The position numbers and the translations under genes are program-made. DNA of 64,000 nt, from assembly GCF_014773365.1 (NCBI RefSeq), contig NZ_JACWUN010000004.1, forward strand, positions 1 to 64,000, given 5' to 3'. Below are positions 58,271-63,987 of this stretch, one piece after another. This stretch comes from Pelovirga terrestris (GTDB lineage: Bacteria > Desulfobacterota > Desulfuromonadia > Desulfuromonadales > Geopsychrobacteraceae). The notes beneath the pieces were generated by a model. The model did no database searches. It had not been told where the DNA came from and saw only the letters and a list, made by a program, of their open reading frames with translations. Each line of letters starts with the position of its first letter. The stretch's first letter is position 1.

Positions 58271-59074
58271 ATCGCTTCTTCATCTGTTAGATTAAATAAA
58301 AAGATCACGGATCTGCTGCAGCTCAGTGCCTTTATGATGCTTGTCATGGGGAGCGGTTACCTATTGCTGAGCGGCGCCGAGAAGCTCGGCTACAACTGGC
58401 AATGGCAGCGGGTAAGCCGTTATCTGATTGAAACTACCGCCGACGGCTGGCGTTTTGGACTCTTGTTCCAGGGATTGTGGATTACCCTCGAAATTGTCGC
58501 GATCAGTCTCGGATTATCCCTGGTCCTCGGCCTGCTGGTGGCACTGATGCGCCTTTCCAACAGTCCGATGGCAACCGGCCTTGCCAGGGTCTATCTGGAA
58601 TTGATTCGTAACACCCCGCTGCTGATCCAGATCTTTGTCATTTATTTTGTCTTTGCCCCTATCTTTGACATGGGGCGTTTTGCTGCTGCCGTCCTCGCCC
58701 TGAGCCTGTTTGAGGGGGCCTATGCGTCGGAAATCATCCGTGCCGGGATCCTTGCTATCCCTTCCGGCCAGTGGGAGGCTTCCTCCTCTCTGGGGATGAA
58801 CAGAGCCCAGTGTTATCGCTACGTTGTCCTCCCCCAGGCCCTGCGTCAGATGATCCCCCCCCTGACCAGTCAGGGTATCTCCCTGGTCAAAGATTCCGCT
58901 CTGGTATCAACCATTGCGATTTACGACCTGACCATGCGCGGCCAGCAGATCATCGCCGACACCTTTTTGACCTTTGAAATCTGGTTTGTTGTCGCCGCTA
59001 TCTATCTTAGCGTTACCCTGATACTGACTCTTCTGGTAAGATATCTGGAACATCAGCTTTTTCCTGCTCGCTGA
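58271..59074 (+). CDS. Amino-acid ABC transporter permease (HisM/GlnP family), likely AUC start
   Basis: A permease with about five membrane helices and the family loop EIIRAGILAIPSGQWEASSSLGMNRAQCYRYVVLPQALRQMIPPL (EAA-like motif). The first ATG in frame is at 58334, inside the first membrane helix. A strong AAGGAGG (58258-58264) sits six bases before an in-frame ATC at 58271, and the intervening codons (ASSSVRLNKKITDLL...) give a normal positively charged N terminus. I therefore take the ATC as start. A substrate-binding protein follows. Confidence 0.8.
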   Translation: MASSSVRLNKKITDLLQLSAFMMLVMGSGYLLLSGAEKLGYNWQWQRVSRYLIETTADGWRFGLLFQGLWITLEIVAISLGLSLVLGLLVALMRLSNSPMATGLARVYLELIRNTPLLIQIFVIYFVFAPIFDMGRFAAAVLALSLFEGAYASEIIRAGILAIPSGQWEASSSLGMNRAQCYRYVVLPQALRQMIPPLTSQGISLVKDSALVSTIAIYDLTMRGQQIIADTFLTFEIWFVVAAIYLSVTLILTLLVRYLEHQLFPAR

Positions 59075-59099
59075 CCACTTGCTGTTTAAGGAGAAAAAA

Positions 59100-59921
59100 A
59101 TGAAAACCCAATTGATCCTGCTATTATCATTGGTTCTTTTGTCTGCTGCTCCATTATGGGCCAGTTCGTCCCGGCAGCAATTGATTCAAGAAAGCACCCT
59201 CGAGCAAGTGATTAAAAATAACCGCCTGCGGGTTGGTTTTTCGACCTTTGTCCCCTGGGCGATGAAGGATAAGACCGGCGGTTTTACCGGTTTCGAAATC
59301 GAGGTGGCAAGACAACTGGCACAGGACATGGATGTTGAGCTTGAACTGGTGCCGACCCGCTGGTCGGGGATCATTCCGGCCCTGTTGACCGGCAAGTTTG
59401 ATATTATCATCGGCGGCATGGGGATCACCCCGGCGCGTAACCTCAAGGTCAATTTCAGTGACCCCTACGAATATTCCGGCATGTCGATCCTCGCTAACCG
59501 GCGGTTAGCCGGTGAGCGCAGCACCCTTGCAGAGTTTAATACGCCGGACGTCGAGATCGTCGCCCGCATCGGCACCACCGCCGCAGCAGCAGCCGAGCGC
59601 TATCTGCCCGAGGCGAAGCTGCGGTTGTTTGATGATGAAGGGCAGGCGTTGCAGGAGCTTCTTAACAACCGTGCCGCTGCCCTGGTTGCTTCGCAGCCGT
59701 TTCCTGAGTTTCAGGCTCTGCGTTACCAGGAGCGCCTTTATCTGCCGCTGGCAGGAAAAACCTTTACCCGTGAACCCATTGGTTTTGCGATCCGCAAGGG
59801 AGATCCTGATTTTCTGAATTTTCTGAATAACTGGATCCGCCTGCGTTTTGCCGACGGCTGGCTGGAGCAGCGCTATAACTACTGGTTTACTACCGACGAC
59901 TGGCGTGGTCAGATCGAGTAG
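59100..59921 (+). CDS. Amino-acid ABC transporter substrate-binding protein
   Basis: A protein of about 273 residues with signal peptide (LILLLSLVLLSAAPLWASS) and type-2 periplasmic-binding folds: LRVGFSTFVPWAMKD, GFTGFEIEVARQLA and GKFDIIIGGMGITPAR (the conserved arginine). It captures a polar amino acid. AAGGAG is placed well for the ATG at 59100; the 59079 start is less likely. Confidence 0.9.
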   Translation: MKTQLILLLSLVLLSAAPLWASSSRQQLIQESTLEQVIKNNRLRVGFSTFVPWAMKDKTGGFTGFEIEVARQLAQDMDVELELVPTRWSGIIPALLTGKFDIIIGGMGITPARNLKVNFSDPYEYSGMSILANRRLAGERSTLAEFNTPDVEIVARIGTTAAAAAERYLPEAKLRLFDDEGQALQELLNNRAAALVASQPFPEFQALRYQERLYLPLAGKTFTREPIGFAIRKGDPDFLNFLNNWIRLRFADGWLEQRYNYWFTTDDWRGQIE

Positions 59922-59975
59922 CTTGCTGGTTAACCTGGCTTGAATAATAAGTGGTCTGCGTTATAGGAGGAGTTT

Positions 59976-60857
59976 TTGCGACGTTCCCTGCGCTGGGGGT
60001 GGCTTGATACCCTGTTGCTTCTGGCCCTGCTGACCCTGATTGCCTATCTGGGCTACCGGGTCAGCATAGGTCTTGAGTATCGCTGGAACTGGCAGGTTAT
60101 CCCGCAGTATCTGGTGCGCCGCGATAGTGATGGCGGGTGGGTAGCCAACATGCTCCTGCTCGGGCTGCTGACAACCATTCGCTTGAGTTTCTGGAGCCTG
60201 CTGCTGGCGCTGCCCTTCGGGGTTATTGCCGGCCTGTTGCGCATCAGCCCACACCTGTTCAACCGTTTGTTGGGGGGCACCTATGTTACCCTGTTGCGCA
60301 ATCTGCCACCGTTGGTACTGATATTTATTTTCTTTTTTTTCATCAGTGACCAGATTCTGCCGCAACTTAACATTGGCGCGCGCCTGTATGCCGCTCCCGA
60401 TTGGGTGCAGACCCTGGTACCGGTGCTGATTGCTCCCATTGAACAGATTGAAACCTTTGTCGCGGCGGCTTTTACCCTGGCCCTGTTCGAGGGTGCTTAT
60501 GTAGCAGAGATTGTCCGCGCCGGGATTAACAGTATCGAAGAGGGTCAGTGGGAGGCTGCGCGTGCTCTGGGGATGCGCCACTGGCAGATTCTGCGCCAGG
60601 TGATTCTACCCCAGGCCCTGCAACGGATGATTCCACCATTGACCGGGCAGGCGATTTCGACCATCAAAGACTCGGCCATCGTCGCGGTTATTTCGGTGCA
60701 GGAGTTGACCTTCCAGGGGCTGGAACTGATGGCGGCCACCTATCTGACCTTTGAGGTGTGGCTGACCGTGACGGCCCTCTATTTTCTGTTAACCTACAGC
60801 TGTTCAACCCTGGCCGGGCGCCTGGAGTTGCGCATGCGCCGCGCCTACCAGTATTAG
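59976..60857 (+). CDS. Amino-acid ABC transporter permease (second subunit)
   Basis: A 293-residue permease with the same EAA-like loop as the other subunit (EIVRAGINSIEEGQWEAARALGMRHWQIL) and about five to six membrane helices. The TTG start at 59976 follows GGAGGA. Together with the gene at 58271 it forms a heteromeric channel; no ATP-binding gene is in this window. Confidence 0.9.
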   Translation: MRRSLRWGWLDTLLLLALLTLIAYLGYRVSIGLEYRWNWQVIPQYLVRRDSDGGWVANMLLLGLLTTIRLSFWSLLLALPFGVIAGLLRISPHLFNRLLGGTYVTLLRNLPPLVLIFIFFFFISDQILPQLNIGARLYAAPDWVQTLVPVLIAPIEQIETFVAAAFTLALFEGAYVAEIVRAGINSIEEGQWEAARALGMRHWQILRQVILPQALQRMIPPLTGQAISTIKDSAIVAVISVQELTFQGLELMAATYLTFEVWLTVTALYFLLTYSCSTLAGRLELRMRRAYQY

Positions 60858-60894: not shown

Positions 60895-61770
60895 TCAACC
60901 TGTTGGTTTTTGGAGGTTGAGATCCGGAAATTCGCGGGCACACAGGCTACTGATCTGGCCCAGGTCGGTGCACACACTAATCCCCGGCAGGTGCATCCCG
61001 TTACGCAAGGCAAACCCGCCGGCGATCATTTTGATATGGCTCGGCAACCCCTTACGCAGCCACGCCAGATCGCGCTTTGCTTGGCGTGGAGCGATCTGAA
61101 TACTGAAGGACAGGGCAACCGCGTCCGCAGCAAAAAAATCCACTATAGAGAGTACTTCCGCCACCGGTAATTCCTCCATCACCAGATGACAATCGCATCC
61201 CTGCTGGTGAAACAACACGGCTGATAACAGCAGCCCCAGCTTGTGGCGCTCACCGCTCAAGGTCGTAAAGACGATCCTCGGACCATATGCGCGGGGAACA
61301 AGCTGTTCCTTCAAGATGGTTGCCAGACAATCCGAGAGCAGATGTTCGCGGGCAATACTTAGTTTGCCGGTCAGCCAGCCACGATCCATCACTTCCAGTA
61401 AGGGGACCGCAAATTCCAGGATAAAAGCCTCGATTCCCCGCTGCTGCAACTGAGTTCGTAGTTCCTTGTCGAGCTGGGCCGCCGCAACGGTTGTAACCAG
61501 CTGCTGCAGGTCATGATGACGGTCGTCAACGTGCTGCTGATTTAGTAGTGCTCTGCGCTCCGCCGCCGTCAAGGCAAAAAGCTGTTTCGGACGATGACCC
61601 AGATTCTGGAGCTTTTTGATGATCCGCAAGTCATCAATCTGTGCCGGCGGATAAAGGCGGTGTCCGCGGGTGTTGCGTTCGGGGGTGGGAAAGCCGAAGC
61701 GTCGTTCCCACACCCGCAAGGTGTCGACACCAATGCCGAGTTCCTGACTCAGTTGTTGGATGGTAATCAT
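60895..61770 (-). CDS. MerR-family regulator with B12-binding domain (CarH/LitR type)
   Basis: A 291-residue regulator: MerR winged helix at residues 1-68 (ITIQQLSQELGIGVDTLRVWERRFG), a helical linker, and a C-terminal cobalamin-binding domain. Signature residues are all present: Trp132, Glu142-His143 and the axial-ligand His176 in SGERHKLGLLL, at almost the same spacing as in CarH light sensors. It lies convergent with the permease and divergent from the phasin-like gene. Confidence 0.88.
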   Translation of the reverse strand: MITIQQLSQELGIGVDTLRVWERRFGFPTPERNTRGHRLYPPAQIDDLRIIKKLQNLGHRPKQLFALTAAERRALLNQQHVDDRHHDLQQLVTTVAAAQLDKELRTQLQQRGIEAFILEFAVPLLEVMDRGWLTGKLSIAREHLLSDCLATILKEQLVPRAYGPRIVFTTLSGERHKLGLLLSAVLFHQQGCDCHLVMEELPVAEVLSIVDFFAADAVALSFSIQIAPRQAKRDLAWLRKGLPSHIKMIAGGFALRNGMHLPGISVCTDLGQISSLCAREFPDLNLQKPTG

Positions 61771-61783
61771 ATTTTGTCCTAGA

Positions 61784-61800
61784 CAATAAGATAGTTATTG
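61784..61800. promoter_or_regulatory. Palindrome in the MerR / phasin-like divergent region
   Basis: CAATAAGATAGTTATTG is an inverted repeat with 6-bp arms and 5-bp spacer. On the plus strand TAGACA (61780-61785) and TAATAT (61804-61809) with an 18-bp spacer could be a promoter for the phasin-like gene with the palindrome in the spacer, as in MerR-controlled promoters. Confidence 0.5.
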
Positions 61801-61858
61801 GAATAATATACTAAAAAAGAAATTTTTGGAACCCGGTATCAAGCCAAAGGAGCTATTT

Positions 61859-62137
61859 ATGGACAACAAACTGGAACAGCTTTTTTATATTGCCTTAGGG
61901 GGCGCCCTGTCGGTGAAAGAAAAACTGGAGAACAACAGTGAGGAAGTCAAAAAGTGGCAAAGTGAAGCCGAAGCCAATGCGCGGGCATTTCTCGATGAAC
62001 TCAGCCAACGTGGAGCGCAGGAAAAAGATCAGGTTAAAGACCTTTTGCGTGAGCAGATCAAAGAGGTGATCAATGAACTCGGCCTGGTGACCAGGGTAGA
62101 TCTGGAGGAGCTAAAAAAGGATCTTAAAACTAAGTGA
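61859..62137 (+). CDS. Phasin-like small helical protein
   Basis: A 92-residue all-helical protein with heptad-like hydrophobic spacing and many Lys, Glu and Gln residues (MDNKLEQLFYIALGGALSVK start). It resembles the phasin/polyhydroxyalkanoate granule-associated family common near UbiB genes. Function unproven. AAAGGAGC precedes the ATG; the frame open to 61826 adds 11 unlikely residues. It overlaps ubiB by four bases. Confidence 0.78.
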   Translation: MDNKLEQLFYIALGGALSVKEKLENNSEEVKKWQSEAEANARAFLDELSQRGAQEKDQVKDLLREQIKEVINELGLVTRVDLEELKKDLKTK

Positions 62138-63702
62138 ACAGGCTCGGTCTCATTCTACATCTTTGCCGACCGGGGCGCAGTTATGCCGTCTTCAGTTTTC
62201 TGATGACGGTTTTTCTGCTGTTCCGGCGCCGTTCACGCTGGTGGTGGTGGCGACCGCTATCCCCTGATCAGCTGGTTGATACCGTCCGCATGCTGGGCGC
62301 CAGTTTTGTCAAGCTGGCCCAGGTACTGGCAACCCGGGCGGATTTTTTTGATGAGGACTATCTCGTCGCTCTGCGGCAGTTGCATGACCGCATGCCGGCG
62401 ATGACAACAACAGACCGAACCAGGGTCTTCCGGCGCGCCTTCGATGATCCGGACGTGTTTGACTATTTTGATCAGCAGCCCCTGGCCAGTGCTTCTATCG
62501 GCCAGGTCCATCGGGCGCGCCTGCGAGCTAACGGTCAGGAGGTGGCAGTCAAGCTGTTGCGCTGGAACATCCGGGTCCAGGTCCAGGTGGATATTGTTCT
62601 GTTAAATCTGTTTTTACGCCTGTTTCGTCCGCTGTTTACCGACCAGACCCGTCATTCCATCGAATCCGTCCTGGCGGCTTTTACCCGAGTGATCCGACAG
62701 GAAGTCAGCATGACTCAGGAACTGGCCAATCTGGAGCTGTTCAGCCAGACCTACAGTGATGCCGGGGTGCGCTTTCCGGTTCCGGTAAAAGCGCTGTCCA
62801 GCGATGATGCCCTGGTCATGAGTTTTGAAGAAGGGGCACGCATCGATAACATTCGCCAGATCGAGGCTTGGGGGGTGGATTTCTCCGCTCTGATGAAAAC
62901 CCTGGTGCTGTTTTACACGGAACAGATGTTGGTCAAGGGGTTTTTTCATGCTGATCCGCACCCCGGCAATCTGCTGGTCACCGCAGAAGGACAGCTGATT
63001 CTTCTCGATTTCGGTATGGTCAGCCGGATCCCGCAGGATATGCGTCAGGCGATGATCTATGCGGTCAAGGCGGCCTACGAACGTGACTATCAGCTGCTGG
63101 TTGGCGCGACCCGGCGTATGGGGATGTTAACCGAAGAGGCTGACGTTAGTGATTTAAGCCGGATTGCTGAAAATCTGTTCGCTATTTTTGACAGCGACCA
63201 TCTTGATGCCGCGAGCATGCAGGGGCTGGCTTTTGGGGTGTTGGAATTGTTGCATGATCAGCCCTTCAAGTTACCCCAGGATGTCATCTATGTGATGCGG
63301 GTGAGCTCTCTGATTGAGGGGCTGGGCACTCAGTATGTCAATAACTTCAACGGGATAAAGGATATTTTGCCGATCCTGAAAGAAAATTTGCCGCGCGCAT
63401 TAGGTGAAGATCGTGGTGTCGCGGAGCGACTAAAGCGCGAGCTGGTGCAGTTGCCCCTGACCTTGACCCAGGCGCGCACGGTCATCGAACAGGCCCAACA
63501 GGGTGACCTGACGGTGCGCATGGCGCGACCCGACCGGGATTATCTGGTGGAAAAGGTAAGTAAGCAACTACGCCGCCTTGGTTTGATGATTTTTTTTCTG
63601 GCACTGGCGTTTTACTTTCAACAATGGCTCAATCAACCCGGTACGGTCTTGTCGGTTATCAGTCTGGCGCTGGCCGCCTGGCTGCTGCGTAATAAAAATT
63701 GA
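62134..63702 (+). CDS. ubiB: UbiB/ABC1-family atypical kinase
   Basis: A 522-residue protein with the UbiB signatures: FVKLAQVLATRADFF (KxGQ-type motif, with Leu-Ala in place of Gly), PLASASIGQVHRARL (Ala-rich loop), FFHADPHPGNLL and LDFGMVSRIP, plus two membrane helices at the C terminus (LGLMIFFLALAFYFQQWL; VISLALAAWLLRNK). Members support quinone biosynthesis or lipid transport. Start overlaps the previous gene, implying coupling. Confidence 0.92.
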   Translation: MNRLGLILHLCRPGRSYAVFSFLMTVFLLFRRRSRWWWWRPLSPDQLVDTVRMLGASFVKLAQVLATRADFFDEDYLVALRQLHDRMPAMTTTDRTRVFRRAFDDPDVFDYFDQQPLASASIGQVHRARLRANGQEVAVKLLRWNIRVQVQVDIVLLNLFLRLFRPLFTDQTRHSIESVLAAFTRVIRQEVSMTQELANLELFSQTYSDAGVRFPVPVKALSSDDALVMSFEEGARIDNIRQIEAWGVDFSALMKTLVLFYTEQMLVKGFFHADPHPGNLLVTAEGQLILLDFGMVSRIPQDMRQAMIYAVKAAYERDYQLLVGATRRMGMLTEEADVSDLSRIAENLFAIFDSDHLDAASMQGLAFGVLELLHDQPFKLPQDVIYVMRVSSLIEGLGTQYVNNFNGIKDILPILKENLPRALGEDRGVAERLKRELVQLPLTLTQARTVIEQAQQGDLTVRMARPDRDYLVEKVSKQLRRLGLMIFFLALAFYFQQWLNQPGTVLSVISLALAAWLLRNKN

Positions 63703-63717: not shown

Positions 63718-63987
63718 ATGAAGGTGACCTATGTAGATGCCCACAAAGAGATCATTCTGGAAAATTTACCCCATTTTTTTAGCGAGCAACTTATTGATGA
63801 CCCCGAGGCATTGCTTGAACAGCTGGAGCGCGAGTTGCGCAGTTTATACGTGCGTCAGGGCAACGACTGGACCGGGCGCGGTGAGATTGGCGATCCCCGG
63901 CTGGAAGCGACCATTGCCGTACTCGAGGCAGTAAGGGCCGAGTGTCTGCAGACGATCGAATCGTCCGTTCATAACAGGAGTCAATAA
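63718..63987 (+). CDS. Hypothetical small protein downstream of ubiB
   Basis: An 89-residue acidic soluble protein (MKVTYVDAHKEIILENLPHF start). No family recognised. GAGGAAAAAAGAAG precedes the ATG, and it follows ubiB after 15 bp, so it is likely the next operon gene. It ends in TAATG shared with the next start. Confidence 0.6.
   Translation: MKVTYVDAHKEIILENLPHFFSEQLIDDPEALLEQLERELRSLYVRQGNDWTGRGEIGDPRLEATIAVLEAVRAECLQTIESSVHNRSQ

Follow-up and report, generated by a model that had tools for sequence, protein, structure and literature searches.

Near one end of the 64,000-nucleotide stretch of Pelovirga terrestris DNA that we analysed (the window), a gene for a MerR-type regulator diverges from genes for a small phasin-like protein and a UbiB kinase (Table 1). 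Its protein had been predicted, from the DNA, to carry the signature of cobalamin-dependent light sensors. Does this regulator sense light with adenosylcobalamin (AdoCbl), and if so, what does it control? (Below, G, C, and L numbers are our labels for genomes, contigs, and loci.)

Table 1. Features around the regulator gene, in window coordinates.
Feature	Position	Strand	Basis
carH-like gene, 291 aa	60895..61770	-	ORF call; profile, phmmer, alignment, and structure matches
Operator, 13-bp palindrome TTGTC-N3-GACAA	61774..61786	.	Predicted; conservation upstream of orthologs and genome scans
Sigma-70-type promoter of the phasin-like/UbiB pair (TAGACA, 16 nt, AATAAT)	61780..61807	+	Predicted; consensus scan only
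Small phasin-like/BMFP-like protein, 92 aa, start codon after AAAGGAG	61859..62137	+	Both families sub-cut-off; orthologs found
ABC1/UbiB atypical kinase, 522 aa, overlaps the small gene	62134..63702	+	PF03109, E = 9e-58; UbiB equivalogs sub-cut-off
89-aa ORF, no Pfam family; also after UbiB in G001, G002, and G011	63718..63987	+	ORF call

The regulator has an N-terminal MerR winged helix, a four-helix bundle (with W132 and E142-H143), and a B12-type Rossmann domain (with the axial histidine, H176). Pfam detects the MerR domain, as well as a B12-binding domain (PF02310) at residues 164-251 with a score below the cut-off (24.9 vs 32.1). The best NCBIfam match is the CarH equivalog NF052513 (122.4 bits, E = 2e-35), whose cut-off of 400 is not reached; the N-terminal half also matches several metal-type MerR families. 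When we searched the PDB with phmmer, CarH/LitR entries from Thermus ranked first (E about 1e-24). In the alignment to Thermus CarH (5c8d; residues 2-230, E = 9e-25), W132, E142, H143, and H176 are all in register with their counterparts (W131, E141, H142, and H177 in the numbering of PMC11796333). Aligned by MAFFT to the carH of T. thermophilus HB8 (a gene from its plasmid), the protein has the same register, at 27% identity. So the residues lie where they were predicted to, and the CarH-like spacing of ten residues from the tryptophan to Glu-His is there too: the protein contains both Wx9EH (W132, E142, H143) and ExHxxG (E174, H176, G179).

The predicted structure points the same way. The AlphaFold model has a mean pLDDT of 93.8, and its first 14 Foldseek matches are chains of full-length CarH entries (best E = 2.4e-14). 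The whole-chain TM-scores are only 0.45-0.54 (by query length) because the two domains are placed differently. By VIA-align, the C-terminal domain fits most of the CarH chains listed at 2.6-3.1 Å over about 190 residues (Z = 18.7 for 8c36_C); 3whp fits at 4.0 Å. Photocobilins (Z = 19.4), AppA (18.3), and methionine synthase (16.1) score comparably on this domain, so the fold alone is no proof of function.

An ortholog over most of the regulator's length was found in 17 of the 60 genomes that we searched: the host's own and those of 16 relatives. (Several of the 60 are incomplete, and our gene calls, which took the longest ORFs greedily, missed some genes, such as an SRPBCC gene in L070 that tblastn recovered.) The family includes Malonomonas rubra DSM 5091 and Desulfuromonas MAGs. 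Our alignment of these proteins has one row for each of 16 of the 17 genomes, as the carH of G058 is split over two contig pieces and was excluded. Scanning with this alignment yielded 80 carH-like loci (the single protein, used as the query, had picked up no relatives), and 59 of these, picked for variety and mostly from beta- and gamma-proteobacteria, were drawn on for a wider alignment of 60 rows. W132, E142, H143, E174, H176, and G179 are invariant in 16/16 rows from the host's taxonomic order and in 60/60 rows of the wider set, and we reject a chance likeness on that ground. A quick 73-row tree places the window-type sequences in a single clade of 18, with an SH-aLRT of 99; the stem of this clade is long, and so is the outgroup, Thermus CarH.

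Was the signature the full one, as originally described? The tryptophan, the Glu-His pair, and the axial histidine are present, as is Wx9EH in a four-helix bundle, by which PMC8156234 recognizes CarH homologs. But the regulator departs from stricter definitions. In the B12 motif given in the same paper, ExHx2Gx41SxV/Tx22-27GG, the V/T position is occupied by S223; the remaining positions fit (E174, H176, G179, S221, 27 residues, and G251-G252), and the strict pattern occurs in 0/16 rows and in 6/60 rows of the wider set. The SignatureFinder set GxxW/EH/GxxH/GxxxP (PMC11796333) is represented by two of its four elements, EH and GERH. In the other two, D129 and M198 replace the glycines, with W132 and P202 retained. 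Also, the residue after the tryptophan is L133, not histidine. Given these departures and the NF052513 score, we file the regulator under the broad LitR/CarH family, to which it belongs by full-length similarity and fold, and not as a CarH equivalog.

The histidine matters since the His132 switch is central to the Thermus model, yet it is missing from every aligned relative (0/16 and 0/60 rows). If these proteins do respond to light, they must therefore usually be released by another mechanism. According to PMC10442372, Thermus CarH with the H132A substitution remains mostly a tetramer when illuminated, and reaching the final light state requires O2. CtMerR, with an arginine at the His132 position, is described as still dissociating from a tetramer into monomers when illuminated (PMC11796333).

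We then examined the palindrome predicted between the divergent genes. The palindrome is there, as a 13-bp putative operator: TTGTCCTAGACAA is the sole match without mismatches to TTGTCYWRGACAA in the window, and TTGTCTAGGACAA is seen just 5' of the start codon in the upstream sequences of orthologs. Allowing two mismatches gives 5 matches in the window, no more than chance (24/100 shuffles reach 5); the palindrome owes its weight to conservation. Among four members of the genus, one operator base differs in one member, and the adjacent ATAATATA is invariant in 4/4. The site adjoins the start codon of carH, and its AGGA coincides with the expected position of carH's Shine-Dalgarno sequence; the -35 hexamer of the predicted phasin-like/UbiB promoter falls inside it.

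Across genomes, the exact 13-mer goes with the regulator. Of the 17 genomes that encode the regulator, 12 contain this 13-mer, at 19 sites in total, always 5' of carH or of a few recurring operons. Two of these are in the host's own genome, before carH and before genes for an SRPBCC protein and an ADP-ribosylglycohydrolase (ADPRGH). Of the 17 sites in 11 relatives, 11 precede carH and 6 precede other operons of the predicted regulon: DUF3833-led operons (G001, G002, and G011), SRPBCC/ADPRGH (G001), phasin-like/UbiB (G034), and, in G002, the interval between a PNPOx-like gene and uvrC. In the other five relatives (G003, G023, G033, G049, and G055), the site before carH has one mismatch. No exact site was found in 36 genomes without carH (36 of 43 were scanned, all except G028, G030, G031, G035, G036, G050, and G056), but one-mismatch sites are common there too (28/36). 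In the wider set, TTGTC-N3-GACAA lies at most 200 bp upstream of the match at 60/80 loci, as compared to 0/80 for two control patterns and 4/1468 for random windows.

Because looser patterns are frequent by chance, we gave weight to the exact core and to where it lies. In the host's genome, TTGTCYNRGACAA has 5 sites vs 3 for the reversed control, and TTGTC-N3-GACAA has 12 vs 8, so most of the looser matches look like chance. Matches with other centres inside ORFs (L054, L056, L059, L192, L193, and L194) look like chance as well. Four 13-mers and two pattern spellings of the operator were sought in an open-licence paper collection, and no paper there contains them.

Many beta- and gamma-proteobacterial loci have two exact palindromes upstream of the carH-like gene (L107, L111, L112, L116, L136, L137, L140, L153, L157, and L169). 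Of 19 such pairs, 10 are spaced by 63 bp, as if two sites were bound on one face of the DNA; the other spacings are 31, 58, 58, 62, 74, 75, and, for three pairs, more than 160 bp. We sought a second copy near the window's palindrome and did not find one. Elsewhere, TTGTCCAAGACAA lies between genes for a pyridine nucleotide-disulphide oxidoreductase and an amidohydrolase (G000:C1:7860; L180:7860), with no abutting TATA-like box by eye. G045, which has DUF1365 and no carH ortholog, carries TTGTCTAGGACAG twice, once on each strand, at a distance of 20 bp (G045:C48:85549-85581).

The divergent pair itself is present as predicted, but "phasin-like" is a weak call for the small gene (21.9 bits vs a cut-off of 28.8; 20.5 vs 37.2 for BMFP). 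Among genomes with carH, 8 of the 9 that could be tested have an operator upstream of UbiB. The exception is G012; G005 has just 280 bp of upstream sequence, with no site. Neither of the two testable genomes without carH (G026 and G053) has an operator there; G010 and G028 have less than 20 bp upstream. Close UbiB homologs (E <= 1e-60) are found in 10/17 genomes with carH vs 4/43 without (p = 1.5e-4 across the 60 genomes, uncorrected for kinship). In G034, the carH-adjacent UbiB is in two overlapping frames (L078, on C46), and a whole copy with its own operator is at G034:C159. Among the matches listed, no open-licence paper named both CarH and UbiB; PMC8269236 mentions UbiB together with cobalamin and a photoreceptor. 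On the other side of the regulator, at window positions 58334-60857, genes for an ABC transporter of the amino-acid type, with two permeases flanking a family 3 binding protein, converge on the 3' end of carH.

Is the pair the only target? A single target had been proposed, and this target is supported, but the operator or a close form of it also precedes other genes in the host's genome. Besides the window's site, which would serve both carH and the pair, there is the SRPBCC/ADPRGH site (on C5). A third site, TTGTCCAGGACAA (on C15), precedes genes for DUF3833, a chalcone-isomerase-like protein, SnoaL, an SDR, an FAD amine oxidase, DUF1365, a CMAS methyltransferase, and DUF2878. A fourth, TTGTCCTGGACAA (on C43), precedes a PNPOx-like gene that diverges from uvrC. 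By eye, the second, third, and fourth sites each have a TATA-like hexamer directly next to the palindrome or overlapping it. (The Pfam names for the C15 operon and for PNPOx were assigned on proteins of G002, where PNPOx is sub-cut-off, and were transferred at 77-89% identity; DUF1365 was also detected directly in the host's genome.)

From genome to genome, these modules shift between the neighbourhood of carH and separate operons with their own operator. The genes like those of C15, which we call furan-type genes, diverge from carH within about 2.1 kb in G007, G012, G049, G052, and G055. They are apart from carH, with their own operator, in the host, G001, G002, and G011, as well as in G003, where that operator has one arm mismatch. 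No operator was found in the 8.8 kb surrounding the furan-type genes of G005. The PNPOx gene directly follows carH in G007, G023, G033, G052, and G055; the host and G002 have a separate site for it. In the latter two genomes, the operator is between uvrC and the PNPOx-like gene (G000:C43:163288, L181:8289; and G002:C74, L072:7236), so uvrC may be affected too. A 385-aa ORF on the contig of the furan-type operon (G000:C15:14321-15478; L179), near histidine-kinase-like ORFs, matches the B12-domain part of the regulator (26%).

What might the C15 operon make? An FAD oxidoreductase, DUF1365, and a CMAS methyltransferase are encoded in a row, in the order that the locus numbers RPA2571, RPA2570, and RPA2569 suggest. 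DUF1365 is a domain of UfaO, which is described as putting O2 into the furan ring of furan fatty acids (PMC7380195), and the FAD protein is probably UfaD. This use of O2 counts somewhat against our reading, given that the lineage is mostly anaerobic. DUF1365 itself is found in 13/17 genomes with carH vs 7/43 without (p = 1.9e-5 across the 60 genomes, uncorrected for kinship).

The lineage of the host is mostly anaerobic, and a light- or B12-responsive switch over membrane genes had been called unexpected. This holds in part, but Pseudomonas is known to have ufaM operons that are induced by light and linked to regulators of the LitR family (PMC9758184). In the P. mendocina operon of phrB, an SDR, an FAD oxidoreductase, and ufaM, phrB and ufaM are reported to rise 25-33 fold in light, and the promoter binds the LitR-family protein PmlR2.

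Other neighbours also bear on light. In G033, the genes divergent from carH encode an SRPBCC protein and a class II photolyase-like protein (the latter with TIGR00591, E = 1.7e-103; 347 bits vs a cut-off of 550), but the operator is 456 bp away from the SRPBCC start. The host has a photolyase; no operator was found near it, even with one arm mismatch. In genomes without carH (G026, G028, G010, and G004; L214, L218, L219, and L223), relatives of the G033 photolyase-like gene (43-68% identity) are near UbiB or furan-type genes, so the connection to light may outlast the regulator. Control of carotenoids can be rejected: phytoene/squalene synthase (PF00494, E up to 0.001) was not found in any of the 60 genomes, and 7/14 control genomes were positive.

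Overall, the family, the key residues, the fold, the putative operator, and the predicted regulon are well supported by comparison, and AdoCbl with light is strongly suggested as the best-supported signal. (The host has a cobalamin adenosyltransferase: PF01923, E = 5e-57.) We think that the protein is probably an AdoCbl-bound dark repressor of the LitR/CarH family, released by light, that governs a membrane-protection regulon; the repression, the AdoCbl binding, the release by light, the product lipid, and the purpose are what we infer. In the dark, AdoCbl would be bound with W132, E142, and H143 over its adenosyl group, and the repressor would assemble into an oligomer on TTGTC-N3-GACAA. Both the pair and carH would then be shut, because the site covers the predicted -35 of the pair and is immediately upstream of the carH start codon. 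Green or blue light would break the Co-C bond and loosen the oligomer. This would turn on carH, phasin-like/UbiB, SRPBCC/ADPRGH, the furan-fatty-acid-type operon, and the PNPOx-like gene, and would protect the membrane when light and oxygen meet photosensitisers.

We considered whether the regulator might bind AdoCbl and yet report coenzyme B12 status or the redox state of cobalt (oxygen) instead of light, with the operator freed when AdoCbl is lost or is oxidized after exposure to O2. L133 rules out the usual bis-His light state, and the mostly anaerobic lineage of the host would suit an oxygen signal. Furthermore, Thermus CarH already couples light with O2 (PMC10442372), and the UfaO step consumes O2 (PMC7380195). 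However, Wx9EH, which caps the adenosyl group (PMC8156234), is invariant in 16/16 rows; carH of G033 has its photolyase-like neighbour; the similar operons of Pseudomonas are light-induced (PMC9758184); and CtMerR responds to light without the histidine (PMC11796333). On balance we consider a pure B12 or redox sensor unlikely.

We are more doubtful still that the regulator is independent of B12, like CarA of Myxococcus or the class II LitRs, and receives its signal from an antirepressor or a LOV protein. CarA works without B12 despite a canonical B12 motif (PMC8156234), class II LitRs work through LOV proteins (PMC9758184), and the PF02310 match in our protein is sub-cut-off. But CarA lacks Wx9EH, which is invariant here, as is the axial histidine (60/60 rows). 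Finally, an ordinary metal- or drug-type MerR activator with a coincidental W/EH/His would agree with the metal-type matches of the N-terminal half, but it is contradicted by the full-length alignments with CarH, the fold, and the invariant residues (16/16 and 60/60 rows), and we reject it.

Returning to the light-released repressor, we offer a more speculative extension, which we hold only tentatively. The regulator could be a coincidence detector for light and O2 that works without a bis-His switch. One palindrome-marked regulon, common to proteobacterial relatives, would remodel the membrane (with furan or methylated fatty acids) and induce a UbiB-type kinase and its small partner, in an order where phytoene/squalene synthase had no match across the 60 genomes. 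UbiB would then gain a role in photo-oxidative protection.

What appears to be new is the palindromic operator, the UbiB/phasin-like target, a regulon in which no carotenoid target was found, and the fact that the His132 switch is generally missing. B12-type light sensing outside of carotenoid control would gain an operator and a regulon that can be tested, in a mostly anaerobic lineage, and the ABC1/UbiB kinase, whose role is unclear, would be tied to photo-oxidative protection of the membrane.

How does this system compare to known ones? Like class I LitR/CarH from Thermus thermophilus, the regulator joins a MerR domain to an AdoCbl-type C-terminal domain, with the tryptophan, Glu-His, and axial histidine in register. 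In both cases genes for protection against light adjoin (in Thermus, a photolyase is two genes away from carH). The differences are that Thermus CarH has His132 instead of leucine, that its operator is three 11-bp direct repeats rather than a palindrome (PMC8156234; the repeat nAnnTnnACAn has no match on either strand of 61770-61860), and that no phytoene/squalene synthase gene was found in the 60 genomes searched here. CtMerR from Chloracidobacterium thermophilum also has a MerR-type AdoCbl domain, lacks the histidine at the His132 position, and matches in fold. It differs in having all of GxxW/EH/GxxH/GxxxP (PMC11796333), which our regulator has in part. Class III LitR of Burkholderia can be compared through beta-proteobacterial relatives of the regulator (for instance L124, from Caballeronia), which have Wx9EH, the axial histidine, and often an identical operator.

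Among the lipid systems, the class II LitRs of Pseudomonas (PplR1 and PmlR1/PmlR2) have a similar target operon, with SDR, FAD oxidoreductase, and ufaM plus phrB, that is strongly induced by light. In contrast to what we propose here, those proteins are held not to bind B12, have a LOV partner, and recognize T(G/A)TACA-N12-TGTA(C/T)A (PMC9758184). The ufaM, ufaD, and ufaO genes of Rhodobacter and Rhodopseudomonas are adjacent and encode a CMAS-type methyltransferase, an FAD oxidoreductase, and a DUF1365 protein, as on C15. There, they are raised in a chrR mutant, whereas here a carH-type operator is upstream and the product lipid is only predicted. Lastly, judging by its description, the MerR-like protein VCA0056 of Vibrio cholerae may be akin to our regulator: it is LitR-like, its gene adjoins phr, and together with ChrR it is required for the response to blue light, in which a CFA-synthase-type gene is light-induced (PMC5241685).
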